From contig JAJZZE010000015.1 in assembly GCA_021797735.1 (NCBI GenBank), positions 4,904 to 45,260 on the forward strand: DNA of 40,357 bases. The letters run 5' to 3'. Below are positions 8,524 to 18,461 of this stretch, piece by piece (the first letter of the stretch is position 1; the number at the start of each line of letters is the position of its first letter). The notes below the pieces were generated by a model. The model was not told where the DNA came from. It saw only the letters and a program-made list of their open reading frames with translations, and did not search any database. A program made the position numbers and the translations under genes. The DNA comes from Thermoplasmata archaeon. GTDB lineage: Archaea > Thermoplasmatota > Thermoplasmata > Thermoplasmatales > Thermoplasmataceae.

Positions 8524-9483
8524 ATGATACTGGCAGTTGATGGTGGCGGTACAAAAACTCTTGCGGTTGTAATAGATGAAAAGAAATTAGTGGTTAAGGG
8601 CATTGGTGTGACGGGTCCAAGCAATGTACGGAGCGTTACAGCAATAACATCAAGGAAAAATATTTTAAAGGCTATCAAAAAGGCAAAGGCCATGGCCGGG
8701 GTTAAAAAAATTGATAGATCAATATATGGCATAGCTGGCTATGGCGATTCAAAATACCATACGGAAGAACTGAATTCAATAATAACCTCCATAAATGAAA
8801 ATGCAGTAATAACAAATGATGGCGAGGCTGCCGTATATCTTATAACCCTTGGCAACGATGGCATTGTTACAGCAATAGGTACCGGATCCGTGGGTGCATA
8901 CATAAAGGAGGGAAAGATCAACAGAATAGGTGGCTGGAGTTATTTAACTGATGATATCGCATCCGGATACTGGATAACACGTAAGGCCCTTGAATTCTGT
9001 GAGAAAAGTTATGATAGGCTAATCGGTGATACAGTCCTAATAAATGAATTTGAGGATTATTTTAAATTACCATTAAGGGATCTTGTATCCAATCTGGAAG
9101 ACCACTTTGATAAGAGATTGATGGCGTCTCTTGCCATAATAGTAAATGATGCAGCGAACAATGGGGACCTTATAGCTAAAGAGGTTTTAAGGCTGGCATA
9201 TGAGGAAATTAAAATGATGATAGATGGCATGAGAAAAAACTTTGATAATGATGTAATAACCGGATCCGTTGGTGGTGTAATGCAATCAGAAATTATCAGA
9301 AATTATTTAATGGAAAAATTTAAGGGTATAAAAATATTTTATGGTTACCATGTAGCCGTAGGAAATGCCATGAAATTACTGAATATAAATGATTTTAATA
9401 CACGGGATAAATTAATAAATGAATTTAACGGCAAGATCAGTGAATTATCACGGGATGAAAGGGATATATTATTTATAAAATAA
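8524..9483 (+). CDS. BadF/BadG/BcrA/BcrD-type sugar kinase (N-acetylglucosamine kinase or KDG kinase-like)
   Basis: This 319-residue ASKHA ATPase has phosphate-1 motif VDGGGTKT at residues 5-12, phosphate-2 region AIGTGSVGAYI, the typical GGWSYLTDDIASGYWI segment, and an adenosine-type GSVGGVMQS near the C-terminus. Members phosphorylate sugars such as N-acetylglucosamine, glucose or 2-keto-3-deoxygluconate. From memory, a Thermoplasma KDG kinase belongs to an unusual sugar kinase class of this kind, which would fit the Entner-Doudoroff metabolism of these archaea. Specificity cannot be read from the sequence. It is monocistronic, and its stop directly abuts an inverted repeat before padR. 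Confidence 0.82.
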   Translation: MILAVDGGGTKTLAVVIDEKKLVVKGIGVTGPSNVRSVTAITSRKNILKAIKKAKAMAGVKKIDRSIYGIAGYGDSKYHTEELNSIITSINENAVITNDGEAAVYLITLGNDGIVTAIGTGSVGAYIKEGKINRIGGWSYLTDDIASGYWITRKALEFCEKSYDRLIGDTVLINEFEDYFKLPLRDLVSNLEDHFDKRLMASLAIIVNDAANNGDLIAKEVLRLAYEEIKMMIDGMRKNFDNDVITGSVGGVMQSEIIRNYLMEKFKGIKIFYGYHVAVGNAMKLLNINDFNTRDKLINEFNGKISELSRDERDILFIK

Positions 9484-9509
9484 TATATCTTTTTTAACAA
9501 AAGATATAT
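9483..9509. repeat. Perfect 11-bp inverted repeat between kinase and padR
   Basis: Arms ATATATCTTTT (9483-9493) and AAAAGATATAT (9499-9509) are perfectly complementary around a TTAAC spacer. It could end kinase transcription, be part of the padR control region, or both. Confidence 0.6.
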
Positions 9510-13701: not shown

Positions 13702-13840
13702 ATTAATTAATTCTATTATTCCACTCCGGATTAATTTGCTTCATTATAAAAATAGGAGAAAAGCAAGTATTCCAACGGAACCAGAAAATATAATGTGCTA
13801 TGTAACCATATTTACATAACCGTTATGCAATTTAAAAATA

Positions 13841-14464
13841 TTATATCTTATTTTCAAGATAATATGATACAACCTTTTTCAGGCTACGCCTAAGTATATC
13901 AGATAATGCCGGTACTGATATATTGATCGACCCTGCAAATTCTGTCAGAGATATTTCCCTATCACTATCAAAATAGCCGCTTTCATATAATTTTAATAAT
14001 ATATCCTTTTCATGATCGGTTAATTCATGAGTTTTGTTTGAAGAAATATCATATATGTAATATTTCAGTCCGGAAGCCTTAAGTGTATCTTTCAATTTAT
14101 TTAATACAGAATAATTGGGTAGCAATAAATTATAAACAACAGTATGGCCATTTATTGTTCTACTGCTCAGTATGGAAGCATCTATTGAATCGATAATTGA
14201 GCACCCACTGCAACAGTATGTCTTTGCCCATATTACATTGTTCCCGGATTTGTGTATATCCTGTGATATCTTCTTAATATTATCCATTACCTCATAGATG
14301 TTTGTATTATTACCAAAAGTGAGCTTATGTGTTGTGGTCTTCTCATCAATTTTCAACCTTTCAATTTTTGTATCCACATAATTTTTTGAAATATAACTGG
14401 TTATGTCACAATCATACCTTTCTATTCTGACGCTTAATTTTATTTCACTTTTATTTTTCACCAT
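13841..14464 (-). CDS. HTH_10 (bacterio-opsin-activator-type) regulator with a CCxxC motif
   Basis: The C-terminal ~55 residues (LTDHEKDILLKLYESGYFDSDREISL..LSDILRRSLKKVVSYYL) match the HTH_10 domain of archaeal Bat-like regulators. The N-terminal 140 residues are a sensor-like region with Cys84, Cys85 and Cys88 in TYCCSGCSI, plus Cys19. That arrangement could bind metal or Fe-S, or respond to redox state. It is divergent from cydA, with a perfect palindrome between the two genes, so control of the oxidase by oxygen, metal or redox is a reasonable inference. No N-terminal domain family is recognised. Confidence 0.8.
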   Translation of the reverse strand: MVKNKSEIKLSVRIERYDCDITSYISKNYVDTKIERLKIDEKTTTHKLTFGNNTNIYEVMDNIKKISQDIHKSGNNVIWAKTYCCSGCSIIDSIDASILSSRTINGHTVVYNLLLPNYSVLNKLKDTLKASGLKYYIYDISSNKTHELTDHEKDILLKLYESGYFDSDREISLTEFAGSINISVPALSDILRRSLKKVVSYYLENKI

Positions 14465-14516
14465 GTGTAAATAATGTTAATGCTTAAAACTTTTTATATT
14501 TAAACATAACACCTTA

Positions 14517-14540
14517 TATATTAACGTTACCGTTAATATA
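14517..14540. promoter_or_regulatory. Perfect palindrome over the cydAB promoter
   Basis: TATATTAACG (14517-14526) and CGTTAATATA (14531-14540) are exactly complementary around TTAC. The right arm contains a TATA-like TTAATATA about 29-36 bases before ATG 14569, so a dimeric regulator here would compete with TBP. The divergent HTH_10 gene is the obvious candidate to bind it. This is inference. Confidence 0.6.
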
Positions 14541-14568
14541 CAGTAAATTTATGATAACATGATATAAA

Positions 14569-16011
14569 ATGTCAATAACATATCCAAACTGGGATGCAAG
14601 TATATTTGCATATACCGTTTCAGCACATATATTAATAGTAACGTTGACACTCGGCCTTGCCTTGCTGATACTGATTTCTGAATTCATTGGCCTTAAATAC
14701 AAAAATAAATACTATGAGGCTCTGGCACATAAAATGTCCATAGCGCTGGTAATCAATTTTGCTATAGGAACAGCATCGGGAATATTTATGGCTGTCAAAT
14801 TAATGCTATTCTGGCCAAATTTTATGGCAATGGTGGGAGATGTAGCTATGGGGGCTTTCTATGCCGAGGTATTTGCCTTTCTGGTTGAATCAATAGCCCT
14901 AATGGTATATGTATATTTCTGGGACAATTTCAAAAACAGGTGGTACCACTGGCTGGTTTCGTGGGGAGTTTTAATAGGAACAGGCGGATCTGCCGCGTTG
15001 ATAGTTGATGTCAATGCATGGATGAATACTCCCACCGGATCGTTCAATATACCCTATTACTTAGAAACGGGTAAAATTATAGACGTTAATCCCCTGGCTG
15101 TTTTCTGGGAACCATCCACCGGTGCACAGCTGTTCCACATGTACGCTGCTGAATATTTGGCCGGTTCCATGATGGTTTTAATATATTTAGCATACAAATA
15201 CATGAAAACAAACAACGTCGATGCAAGGAAGATGTATAAGGCAGGAATAGGCATATTATCAATAGTGGCGATCTTTGATATAATTATAACGGGTATAGCC
15301 GGTTCGGTAGAGGCAACCACATTACTGGCTGTAGAGCCTTTAAAATATGCAGATATAGAACAGGACATGTATCCTGCAACACACGGTGTTGCCGAGCATG
15401 TCTTTGGTATACTGGTCAATGGAAAACCGGCATACTATCTTAACATACCGGGTTTACAATCATTGCTGGCATATCCAACAACGTTCGGAAAGGGCCCTAT
15501 ACCTGGACTAAGCACATATCCGGCAAGTGACTGGGCTCCATCTGTAGTCCATGACCTCTTTGATTTAATGGTTGGTTTCGGTACATTGATTGGCTTATAC
15601 TGGTTATATGTGGTTGTGCAGTATTTCAGGAAGAAGGACCCGTTAAACCAGAAATTAACATTATACGGGATGATGTTCTTCGGTGTTATTGCCGTTATTA
15701 CTATGGAACTTGGGTGGTGGACAGCCGAGGTCAGCAGGGTTCCATTTATAGTTAAATCACCGGTACCGGGAGGGTTAATAGTAAATGGCACACATTACTA
15801 CGGTGTCATGACAATTACGGATGCGGCGTCGTATTCGCCTATTATATGGCCACTCGGAATATTGATAATCATATTCTATATAATATTAATACCGTTGATG
15901 TTCTATTATATGGCAGGAGTGTTAAAGGATGAAACTGATGAAGAAATGCAGAAGGCCGAAGAAGAAGTAAATAATGGAGGGGCAACAGGAATGAAGGCAG
16001 GTATGAGGTGA
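14569..16011 (+). CDS. cydA: Cytochrome bd quinol oxidase subunit I
   Basis: This 480-residue membrane protein carries the haems and oxidises quinol with oxygen. Residues corresponding to the E. coli haem ligands and nearby acids are visible: His20, His190 (LFHMYAAEYLAGS), Met334 (FDLMVGFGTL), and Glu100 and Glu107 in GAFYAEVFAFLVES. The usual GWxxxEvGRQPW segment is changed to GWWTAEVSRVPF. The quinol (Q) loop is short. It is co-transcribed with a divergent subunit II and opposite a redox-type regulator. Confidence 0.94.
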   Translation: MSITYPNWDASIFAYTVSAHILIVTLTLGLALLILISEFIGLKYKNKYYEALAHKMSIALVINFAIGTASGIFMAVKLMLFWPNFMAMVGDVAMGAFYAEVFAFLVESIALMVYVYFWDNFKNRWYHWLVSWGVLIGTGGSAALIVDVNAWMNTPTGSFNIPYYLETGKIIDVNPLAVFWEPSTGAQLFHMYAAEYLAGSMMVLIYLAYKYMKTNNVDARKMYKAGIGILSIVAIFDIIITGIAGSVEATTLLAVEPLKYADIEQDMYPATHGVAEHVFGILVNGKPAYYLNIPGLQSLLAYPTTFGKGPIPGLSTYPASDWAPSVVHDLFDLMVGFGTLIGLYWLYVVVQYFRKKDPLNQKLTLYGMMFFGVIAVITMELGWWTAEVSRVPFIVKSPVPGGLIVNGTHYYGVMTITDAASYSPIIWPLGILIIIFYIILIPLMFYYMAGVLKDETDEEMQKAEEEVNNGGATGMKAGMR

Positions 16012-16016
16012 TTAAA

Positions 16017-17018
16017 ATGAGCAATTTCTTTTTTTATGCAGATACGTATGTTATAAAGCTGGTACTAGCAACTATGGTGGTTTTCCTTGGATCAGAATTC
16101 ATGGCTATATTTCCGATATTTACAAACTTTGAAAAGAATGGGGAAAACGTGAAAAGGCACATAGTGCCAATATGGGAAATCACAGGCACCGTCGTGGTAT
16201 ACTTCGTCGTGGAACTTGAATTAATATATTCATACCTGGTACCTGTTGCATCGTATTTATTCATACCGTTAATCGGGGCATTCATATTATTACTGATATT
16301 GCGCAATGTTGCCATTATATATGCGGAGTTTCTATGGAAGCACAAAAAGTACCATGCAATAAGCAACAGCAATTTATATAAGGGGTATTCAGTAGCCACA
16401 TTTATTATGATGATCCTGTTCATAACCGGGGTTTTATCGCTGATGTATGGAAAGGGCATACACCTGTCACCAGCAGTGTATATGGATTACATGCCATTAC
16501 TGTCCACATATAATTACTGGTTATTCTTACTGGGTACACTGTTCATAACATACGGATTGTCAACAGTATTTTACAGAACCATTAATATAAAATCATACAT
16601 ACCGCTGGTAACTGTTATAGCAGGGTTAATATTGAGCACTGCCGGGCTGGCTAAAATAGCAATCATAGATAGGGTGCCATCATCGGATTTATACCTGCTG
16701 ATAATACCGGCAATATTAACCATACTGATTCCGGTGCTGTATATGAACAAAAAAACCACAAATCTGGCGTCATATAAACCATTTTTCTTTGTTTTAATGG
16801 TTTTTGCTGTATTTACAATAGAGGTACCTGTAATGTATATAGCCGGTGGGGCTTTTCCAGTATCGGCATTTCAATCAGCACCTTCAATGCTCGCATTTAA
16901 CTTCTATATGAGCATACTCGGTGGGATTATATTCCTGTTATTCATGGCAATGTATGCATATGTATACTCGAATAATCCTGTAAAATCGGGAACCAGTGAT
17001 AAAAAATCACATAATTAA
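16017..17018 (+). CDS. cydB: Cytochrome bd oxidase subunit II, divergent archaeal type
   Basis: This membrane protein of about 333 residues has eight or nine hydrophobic segments and follows cydA directly. It is weakly CydB-like: the DGFDLG start motif of bacterial CydB is absent, but an equivalent of the PvWegNEvW region may be seen in RHIVPIWEITGTVVVYFVVELE. Position and topology argue for the small, haem-free partner of CydA. An in-frame GTG at 16008 overlaps the cydA stop. ATG 16017 is preferred because AGGTGA lies 7 bases before it. Confidence 0.8.
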   Translation: MSNFFFYADTYVIKLVLATMVVFLGSEFMAIFPIFTNFEKNGENVKRHIVPIWEITGTVVVYFVVELELIYSYLVPVASYLFIPLIGAFILLLILRNVAIIYAEFLWKHKKYHAISNSNLYKGYSVATFIMMILFITGVLSLMYGKGIHLSPAVYMDYMPLLSTYNYWLFLLGTLFITYGLSTVFYRTINIKSYIPLVTVIAGLILSTAGLAKIAIIDRVPSSDLYLLIIPAILTILIPVLYMNKKTTNLASYKPFFFVLMVFAVFTIEVPVMYIAGGAFPVSAFQSAPSMLAFNFYMSILGGIIFLLFMAMYAYVYSNNPVKSGTSDKKSHN

Positions 17019-17036
17019 TTTTTTTTATTTTTTAAT
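17016..17036 (+). terminator. T-rich terminator after cydB
   Basis: An 8-T run, A, then a 6-T run follow the cydB stop codon at once. Oligo-T tracts are sufficient for archaeal termination, with no hairpin needed. Confidence 0.5.
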
Positions 17037-17306
17037 ATTTGCTTATCCGTGTTATGACATCCTCATCATTTACCCCATAATCAGGGCTTACCATTAATTC
17101 TATCTTTCTTGATAAAAATTTTCATGAATGTTCATTATAAAAGATAGTGGCCTACCAGTGGTAGCTAATGAGAAGCAGAGAAATAAAAAATATAGCATTT
17201 TGAATGATTACAGAAACTAAAACATCTCATTGAAAATGTCCATATTTGAGTGGGCAGATCAATGATAAGTATAAGCCATTCAGGATGCACTTGGTTTTGA
17301 ATCAAC

Positions 17307-17714
17307 TCATTTTCTTGCCTCAATCTCCAATAATTCCAGGTATTCATTTACCTCTGGCAGCGATTCTACCGCCACTCTCTTTAAAATTGACATGTCTGTC
17401 CTGTGAGAGAACATATAGCCAGCATCGTTTCTATATTTCAATAGCAACTGGAACGTTTCCAATATTTCATCCAGCGACTCTTCCAGTTTTTTATTAAATT
17501 TCAATGACCCTGCCCTTAGTTTAAAAATTGGTATTACATCGTGTATCTTAGGATATTCAATCTCAAACTTTAGAAATATTGATTTTAAGCCTATCTCCAG
17601 TGCCATTTCAAGGGAGTATACGCATGTATCATAGTTACCATCGTCATAAGCATCGGTTGCTGTTTTATACCATCTCTTAGCATTATTTACTGCATTCACT
17701 GCTTCATTTTCCAT
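17307..17714 (-). CDS. HEPN-domain protein (MNT/HEPN pair)
   Basis: This 135-residue all-helical protein has the HEPN layout: AVNNAKRWYKTATDAYDDGNYDTCVYSLEMAL at the start, then IHDVIPIF and a long C-terminal helix. Toxin HEPN proteins usually carry RX4-6H for RNA cleavage. Here the nearest candidate, YRNDAGYMFSH, has eight residues between Arg and His, so catalysis is uncertain. It overlaps the upstream nucleotidyltransferase gene by 19 bases, which marks an MNT/HEPN toxin-antitoxin-like operon in which the transferase modifies or neutralises the HEPN partner. Confidence 0.8.
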   Translation of the reverse strand: MENEAVNAVNNAKRWYKTATDAYDDGNYDTCVYSLEMALEIGLKSIFLKFEIEYPKIHDVIPIFKLRAGSLKFNKKLEESLDEILETFQLLLKYRNDAGYMFSHRTDMSILKRVAVESLPEVNEYLELLEIEARK

Positions 17715-18289
17715 GTTAGTTCCACCCCCGCAGCGGTAAATTTTCTTGTATGCTTTATTTTATTAATATCCACCATAAATTTTGTCACGGTATCTCCTTT
17801 TTCATAAAGTATTATACCATAATCTGCAAAATCGAAATAAATTGACCTAAATGAGGTCAGGTCACTCAGCGATAGTACAAAGGGGCTGAACCGGTAATAT
17901 TTTCCTTTTTTTACAAACTCTATTTCCACTGGCAGTATTTTTTTTCTTATTTCCCAAAGTTTTTTAGAGTATTCATATGTGTCCTGATCCACTATTACCA
18001 GCATATCTACATCACTTATATTATTATAATTTCCTTTTGCAACGGAGCCAAATAATACCACTCCTGCGACTCTATCATCTTTTAATAATATGTCTTTCAG
18101 TTTATTTATATAATCGATTAATTCTTTCTCAAGATTGAGCACCAACACGGAACGACGTAGCATCAGATCTATTAGCGTACTAAAGCTTTCCTGCGATGCA
18201 TAAATTTTATTAAAGTTTTTTTTGGCTATGTTCAATTTATCGTATTCTTCTTCGGTTATCATAATAGATCTATAACCAGGACTTACCAT
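17696..18289 (-). CDS. MNT nucleotidyltransferase with an N-terminal VapB-like extension
   Basis: Residues about 75-95 hold the minimal nucleotidyltransferase signature GSVAKGNYNNISDVDML (GSx10DxD). The domain continues to about residue 190. Residues 10-50 (MITEEEYDKLNIAKK, then QESFSTLIDLMLRR) resemble the ribbon-helix-helix DNA-binding start of archaeal VapB antitoxins (UPF0330-like), which is unusual in front of an MNT domain. Met10 (18262) is an equally good start, and the fusion would remain. It is upstream of and overlapping the HEPN gene. The upstream direct repeats could be its own operator. Confidence 0.8.
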   Translation of the reverse strand: MVSPGYRSIMITEEEYDKLNIAKKNFNKIYASQESFSTLIDLMLRRSVLVLNLEKELIDYINKLKDILLKDDRVAGVVLFGSVAKGNYNNISDVDMLVIVDQDTYEYSKKLWEIRKKILPVEIEFVKKGKYYRFSPFVLSLSDLTSFRSIYFDFADYGIILYEKGDTVTKFMVDINKIKHTRKFTAAGVELTWKMKQ

Positions 18290-18315
18290 ATTTATCTTAT
18301 ACTATTTATCTTATA
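18290..18315. promoter_or_regulatory. Direct repeats at the MNT/HEPN promoter
   Basis: ATTTATCTTATA occurs at 18290-18301 and again at 18304-18315, 14 bases apart. The pair lies on the minus-strand TATA region directly upstream of the MNT start. Helical phasing is poor for one face, but a ribbon-helix-helix array could bind. This is inference. Confidence 0.4.
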
Positions 18316-18461
18316 TAAATATTATGCATTATACTATGACGATTATTGGCTATCATAAAAATTCCATGGTAAAACTGGATATAAGGTCAGGATATAATTT
18401 ACAGAGAAGCGTATATAATCGCTTTTAATAAATAATAAATATTACTAATGCATAATTCTCC

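Follow-up and report, generated by a model that had tools for sequence, protein, structure and literature searches.

A conserved dyad next to a perfect palindrome in the cydA promoter region is the more likely operator of an HTH_10 regulator in Ferroplasma

Organization of the regulator–cydA locus

The analyzed stretch of DNA (the window, 40,357 nucleotides) comes from a Ferroplasma genome and contains a gene for an HTH_10 transcription regulator and, divergently oriented, the cydA gene of a cytochrome bd quinol oxidase. The two genes are separated by a spacer of 104 bp with a GC content of 19%. The features of the locus are as follows.

13841–14464, minus strand: HTH_10 transcription regulator, 207 aa (PF04967, E-value 2.4e-12), with C19, C84, C85 and C88 before the HTH domain
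14495–14504, minus strand: TATA-like element of the divergent HTH_10 gene, TTTAAATATA, at -40 to -31 (pattern match only)
14511–14527, no strand: candidate conserved operator ACCTTATATATTAACGT, composed of the core CCTTA (14512–14516), a 5-bp gap and TAACG (14522–14526)
14517–14540, no strand: perfect palindrome TATATTAACG-TTAC-CGTTAATATA, 10 pairs with a 4-base loop, present in one of eight Ferroplasma spacers
14533–14540, plus strand: TATA-like element of cydA, TTAATATA, at -36 from the cydA start (pattern match)
14569–16011, plus strand: cydA, cytochrome bd quinol oxidase subunit I (PF01654, 8.7e-83; PDB 5doq chain A, 1.6e-46)
16008–17018, plus strand: presumed cydB frame, named by its position after cydA

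CydA is an ordinary member of its family with 5doq as the best solved relative. The locus differs from other cytochrome bd oxidase operons in the frame downstream of cydA, which scored above the cut-off of no Pfam or NCBIfam model; its assignment as cydB is inferred from position.

The HTH_10 domain of the regulator scored 46.9 bits, above the Pfam gathering score of 23.1. A Pfam search extending to E = 1 returned no other domain, and a PAS or GAF sensor domain was not detected. In NCBIfam the regulator gave only a weak match to SSO5209_fam, far below the cut-off (18.4 of 140 bits). Residues C19, H46, C85 and C88 are invariant in all 19 aligned regulators and could serve in redox or metal sensing. 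A structural model of the regulator (mean pLDDT 84, pTM 0.59) comprises, by our own reading of the secondary structure, two β-α-β-β-α-β units followed by the HTH. In the model, the region before the HTH with the four invariant residues may form a metal or redox site. Among the best 50 solved folds we found no convincing relative of this model: the best E-values (3ki9, 9.2e-5) came with r.m.s.d. values of 12–13, and Thermoplasma Ta1207 (PDB-entry 5m86) superimposed with a TMq of 0.45 and an r.m.s.d. of 4.5. A profile search of solved sequences yielded nothing below E = 0.11. Nine HTH_10 proteins were found in the genome. On contig C50, which carries a second cydA gene, no HTH_10 gene was found.

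The palindrome and its chance level

Direct reading and a repeat search agree that the arms at 14517–14526 and 14531–14540 are 100% complementary around TTAC. The 10+4+10 palindrome described in the sequence-only reading is thus real, and it does lie between cydA and the divergent regulator gene, as had been stated. It is, however, only moderately improbable, since perfect dyads come up more readily than one would guess in a spacer of such low GC content. When the spacer was shuffled 20,000 times with its dinucleotides preserved, 2.1% of the shuffled sequences had perfect arms of length 10 or greater, loops of 0–10 being allowed. Requiring two or more G-C pairs lowered the frequency to 0.4%, and requiring a loop of 4 as well lowered it to 0.05%; the G-C-pair and loop conditions were chosen after the site was seen. 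Perfect arms of at least 10 occur at three places in the window (9463–9489, 9483–9509 and 14517–14540). Counting loop variants these amount to 6 entries, as compared with 0–4 entries per shuffle in 20 whole-window shuffles. The region 9463–9509 holds two neighboring perfect dyads (12+3+12 and 11+5+11), located at and just past the end of the gene at 8524–9483 and ahead of a PadR-like gene.

An overlap with the TATA-like element had also been claimed. The right arm of the palindrome indeed ends in TTAATATA. A position of -36 is unusual in the window: the most common position is -28 (6 of 24 window genes with a spacer of at least 50 bp), and -36 was observed at cydA only. The overlap is nevertheless plausible, because the second cydA gene of the genome carries its element, TTTATATA, likewise at -36. 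In six relatives the sequence TAAATAC is found at -33/-34.

The sequence-only reading had proposed to look for the palindrome in front of cyd genes and in related genomes, and had named a failure to find it conserved in close relatives with both genes as grounds for abandoning it. Among the ten members of the genus that were searched, eight (including the window genome and F. acidarmanus Fer1, NC_021592.1) have the regulator and cydA as a divergent pair. G062 was left out of the spacer comparison because its cydA lies at a contig end; in G065 the single cydA match belonged to the other type and the regulator was not strongly matched. The palindrome is present in one of the eight spacers, i.e. 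it is absent from all seven apart from that of the window, which rules it out as a conserved operator. Its form ATTAACG-n4-CGTTAAT was found in 2 of 77 family genomes, this one and G094, where the copy sits within an open frame of 398 aa. Within the window genome TTAACG-n4-CGTTAA occurs exactly at one place and within one mismatch at 10 places, compared to 30 for a reversed control, so that a repeated genomic motif was likewise rejected. Three of the nine one-mismatch places were inspected; two lie within open frames and one outside. Upstream of the other eight HTH_10 genes of the genome the palindrome is never matched more closely than with four mismatches.

A conserved dyad in Ferroplasma spacers

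A different dyad, ACCTnA-n4-TnAGGT, is present in exact form in six of the eight Ferroplasma spacers (e.g. TACCTTACATATAAGGTA; TACCTGATATATAAGGTA in F. acidarmanus Fer1). In these six relatives it starts 57–58 bp before cydA, covers approximately positions -58 to -42 relative to the cydA start and precedes the TATA-like element. The two spacers lacking the exact n4 dyad, those of the window and of G063, carry a form with a 5-bp gap, with one mismatch and none, respectively. In G063, whose gene pair is the most similar one among the relatives, the half-sites are perfect and lie 5 bp apart, as in the window (ACCTTAATATGTTAGGT). A pattern that was widened so that the window sequence fits, ACCT-n8/9-A[C/G]GT, starts at -57, -58 or -59 from the cydA ATG in all eight genomes. 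It is followed by a TATA-like element at -36 to -33, identified by pattern in seven genomes and by eye in G063. The 16 regions inspected upstream of second copies of cydA or of other cydA genes contained no ACC-n6..14-GGT. The motif was first spotted in the Ferroplasma spacers that are themselves counted here, and these related genomes are not independent.

By the measure of a phylogenetic footprint, which asks for a dyad that recurs at a fixed location in related genomes with both genes, ACCTnA-n4-TnAGGT qualifies as a predicted site and the palindrome does not. Of the earlier claim that the spacer harbors a true operator, the part that stands is the presence of a conserved, operator-like dyad; its identification with the perfect palindrome is not supported.

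Compared with the family core CCTnA-n4-TnAGG, the window site ACCTTATATATTAACGT has one additional base and one deviating base: it matches the n5 form with one mismatch and the n4 consensus with two. A site within one mismatch (n4 or n5) occurred with a frequency of 0.0004 at five start positions around this place and of 0.0094 anywhere in the window spacer upon shuffling of the latter; the n5 form was accepted after the window site had been seen and is supported by two genomes. The candidate operator and the palindrome share 11 bases, the left arm of the palindrome being made up of the five gap bases together with the right half-site TAACG. The conserved motif that overlaps the left half of the palindrome is the more likely docking site of the neighboring regulator.

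The core motif upstream of regulators in other genera

For a comparison across genera we took one regulator match each from 63 of the 80 genomes with a match. The exact core CCTnA-n4-TnAGG is present in 15 of the 63 regions (150 bp) upstream of these orthologous regulators, compared to 0.16 in shuffles, and these sites are spread over six genera. Within one mismatch the numbers are 29 of 63 and 2.75, which leaves 34 regions devoid of such an n4 site. Gaps of 0–3 and 5–9 gave zero or one exact site each. Within one mismatch other gaps exceed the shuffles somewhat, the largest count being 9 of 63 for gap 9 (2.30 in shuffles). The 16-bp form within one mismatch was found in 13 of 63 regions of 250 bp, and the reversed motif in none of them.

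Across whole genomes the 16-bp motif in its exact form shows no enrichment (4 copies here and 4 for the reversed control; congeners often lie below the control), so the signal is positional. The other eight HTH_10 genes found in the genome have no site within one mismatch in the 180 bp upstream. Among the matches listed, the frames across the spacer from the regulator differ between genera as judged by eye, which points to the regulator rather than cydA as the constant partner of the motif.

The recognition helix of the window regulator starts with SVP, as do those of G063 and of G102/G103. The sites of G102/G103 are exact n4 sites, and a switch in specificity of the window regulator is not favored for this reason.

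Proposed mechanism and alternative explanations

Based on these comparisons we propose, with somewhat better than even confidence, that the HTH_10 protein, bound to the conserved dyad as a dimer, activates cydAB, and that the palindrome is not the conserved site of the regulator. In Ferroplasma the divergently transcribed regulator gene and cydA would share a promoter region, in which an HTH_10 dimer is predicted to bind ACCTnA-n4-TnAGGT just upstream of the TATA box. The bound dimer would stimulate cydAB in the manner of the activators Bat, DmsR and NarO, and by analogy with these the position of the dyad suits activation. The protein probably also adjusts the expression of its own gene, and its conserved cysteines may sense the redox state or a metal. 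In the window genome the degenerate site at 14511–14527 would take the role of the operator. The perfect palindrome would then arise because the right half of this operator, TTAACG, happens to mirror the run-in to the TATA-like element (CGTTAATATA). Such a chance mirroring of a degenerate operator and a TATA element is the simplest account, and the palindrome is most likely a lineage-specific coincidence and at most an accessory site. The mismatch and the extra base of the window site still leave room for a decay of control or for a real additional site that covers the TATA element.

The latter would correspond to a newly evolved, working operator of this species, bound by the divergent regulator or by another of the nine HTH_10 proteins and blocking the TATA box. 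The perfect pairing of the dyad within so short a spacer (reached by 0.4% of shuffles when two G-C pairs are demanded), the two identical TAACG half-sites and the overlap with a likely TATA element argue for it. We nevertheless regard it as unlikely in view of the absence from all seven relatives with the pair, the single exact occurrence in the genome (with one-mismatch places below the reversed control) and the lack of anything closer than four mismatches upstream of the other HTH_10 genes. Moreover, the half-sites of the palindrome, TAACG..CGTTA, point the opposite way from those of CCTnA..TnAGG, and the same dimer geometry would therefore not fit. Only slightly less doubtful is a scenario in which neither site works here: the cassette was moved or acquired, its operator decayed, cydA is expressed constitutively and the palindrome is a chance dyad of AT-rich DNA. 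In favor of this are the degenerate window operator and the occurrence of perfect arms of at least 10 in 2.1% of shuffles; G065 lacks the pair between nearly identical flanks, and the cassette is placed differently from that of G063. On the other hand, the frame and the HTH of the regulator are intact, and the left half ACCTTA of the operator has been kept together with its position. An RNA or DNA hairpin (terminator or cruciform) would explain the perfect complementarity. We consider it very improbable, as the stem has two G-C pairs, no terminator-like site was found in 14400–14650 and a TATA element at -36 would place the palindrome ahead of the point at which cydA transcription is expected to begin.

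Relation to known regulators

Bat has an HTH_10 domain and, in addition, a PAS/GAF sensor domain. The upstream activating sequence (UAS) of the bop gene has the consensus ACCcnactagTTnG, which fits the register of ACCTnAnnnnTnAGG. The Bat-type HTH is common to the Bat/bop system of Halobacterium salinarum and the window regulator; the latter differs in that no PAS/GAF domain was found and in its likely target (a bd oxidase instead of bacterio-opsin). A UAS has been reported 5' of bop in H. salinarum, and DmsR is described as a Bat-type activator (PMC1447603). Bat is likewise described as an activator (PMC3184054). NarO (Haloferax volcanii) and DmsR (Halobacterium) are presented in PMC11218638 as Bat-type activators of respiratory genes devoid of PAS/GAF domains, and the window regulator therefore resembles them rather than Bat. 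They differ from it in their targets, which are genes of anaerobic respiration. In the accessible portions of the open-licence literature we found no operator described for these Thermoplasmatales HTH_10 proteins. A search with PF01036, aimed at the haloarchaeal bop promoter, gave nothing in any genome searched.

It is conceivable, and we put this forward tentatively, that Bat-type HTH_10 regulators from Thermoplasmatales to haloarchaea recognize a common DNA code, CCTnA-n4-TnAGG, placed ahead of the TATA box. If true, sequence could be used to assign targets to this little-studied class of regulators in archaea. For the locus itself, the address of the regulatory site is corrected by a few bases. 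A testable candidate binding motif is gained for a subfamily of Thermoplasmatales HTH_10 regulators, one of which would, by inference, control a terminal oxidase in Ferroplasma acidarmanus.

Probable mobility of the cassette

The left flank, up to 13745, and the right flank, from 18364 on, are approximately 97–98% identical to G065, which contains mostly unrelated DNA between them. In the window the intervening segment (13746–18363) comprises the regulator–cydAB genes and a nucleotidyltransferase/HEPN pair (17307–18289). The corresponding slot in G065 holds, as judged by eye, small frames resembling a toxin–antitoxin pair and a transposase fragment. In G063 it holds other DNA as well, and the gene pair is found on another contig. 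The window cassette includes 137 bp that match contig C39 of its own genome (2168–2303) at 90.5%, and C39:2214–3909 matches DNA adjoining the pair in G063. Since it carries DNA matching the surroundings of the G063 pair, the cassette has probably been moved or transferred. A region of G065 (C10:85000–89500) matches the surroundings of the G063 pair and contains only scraps of window positions 13779–13854 and 17006–17113. These correspond to the far ends of the regulator and cydB frames, and the regulator–cydA pair appears to have been deleted there.
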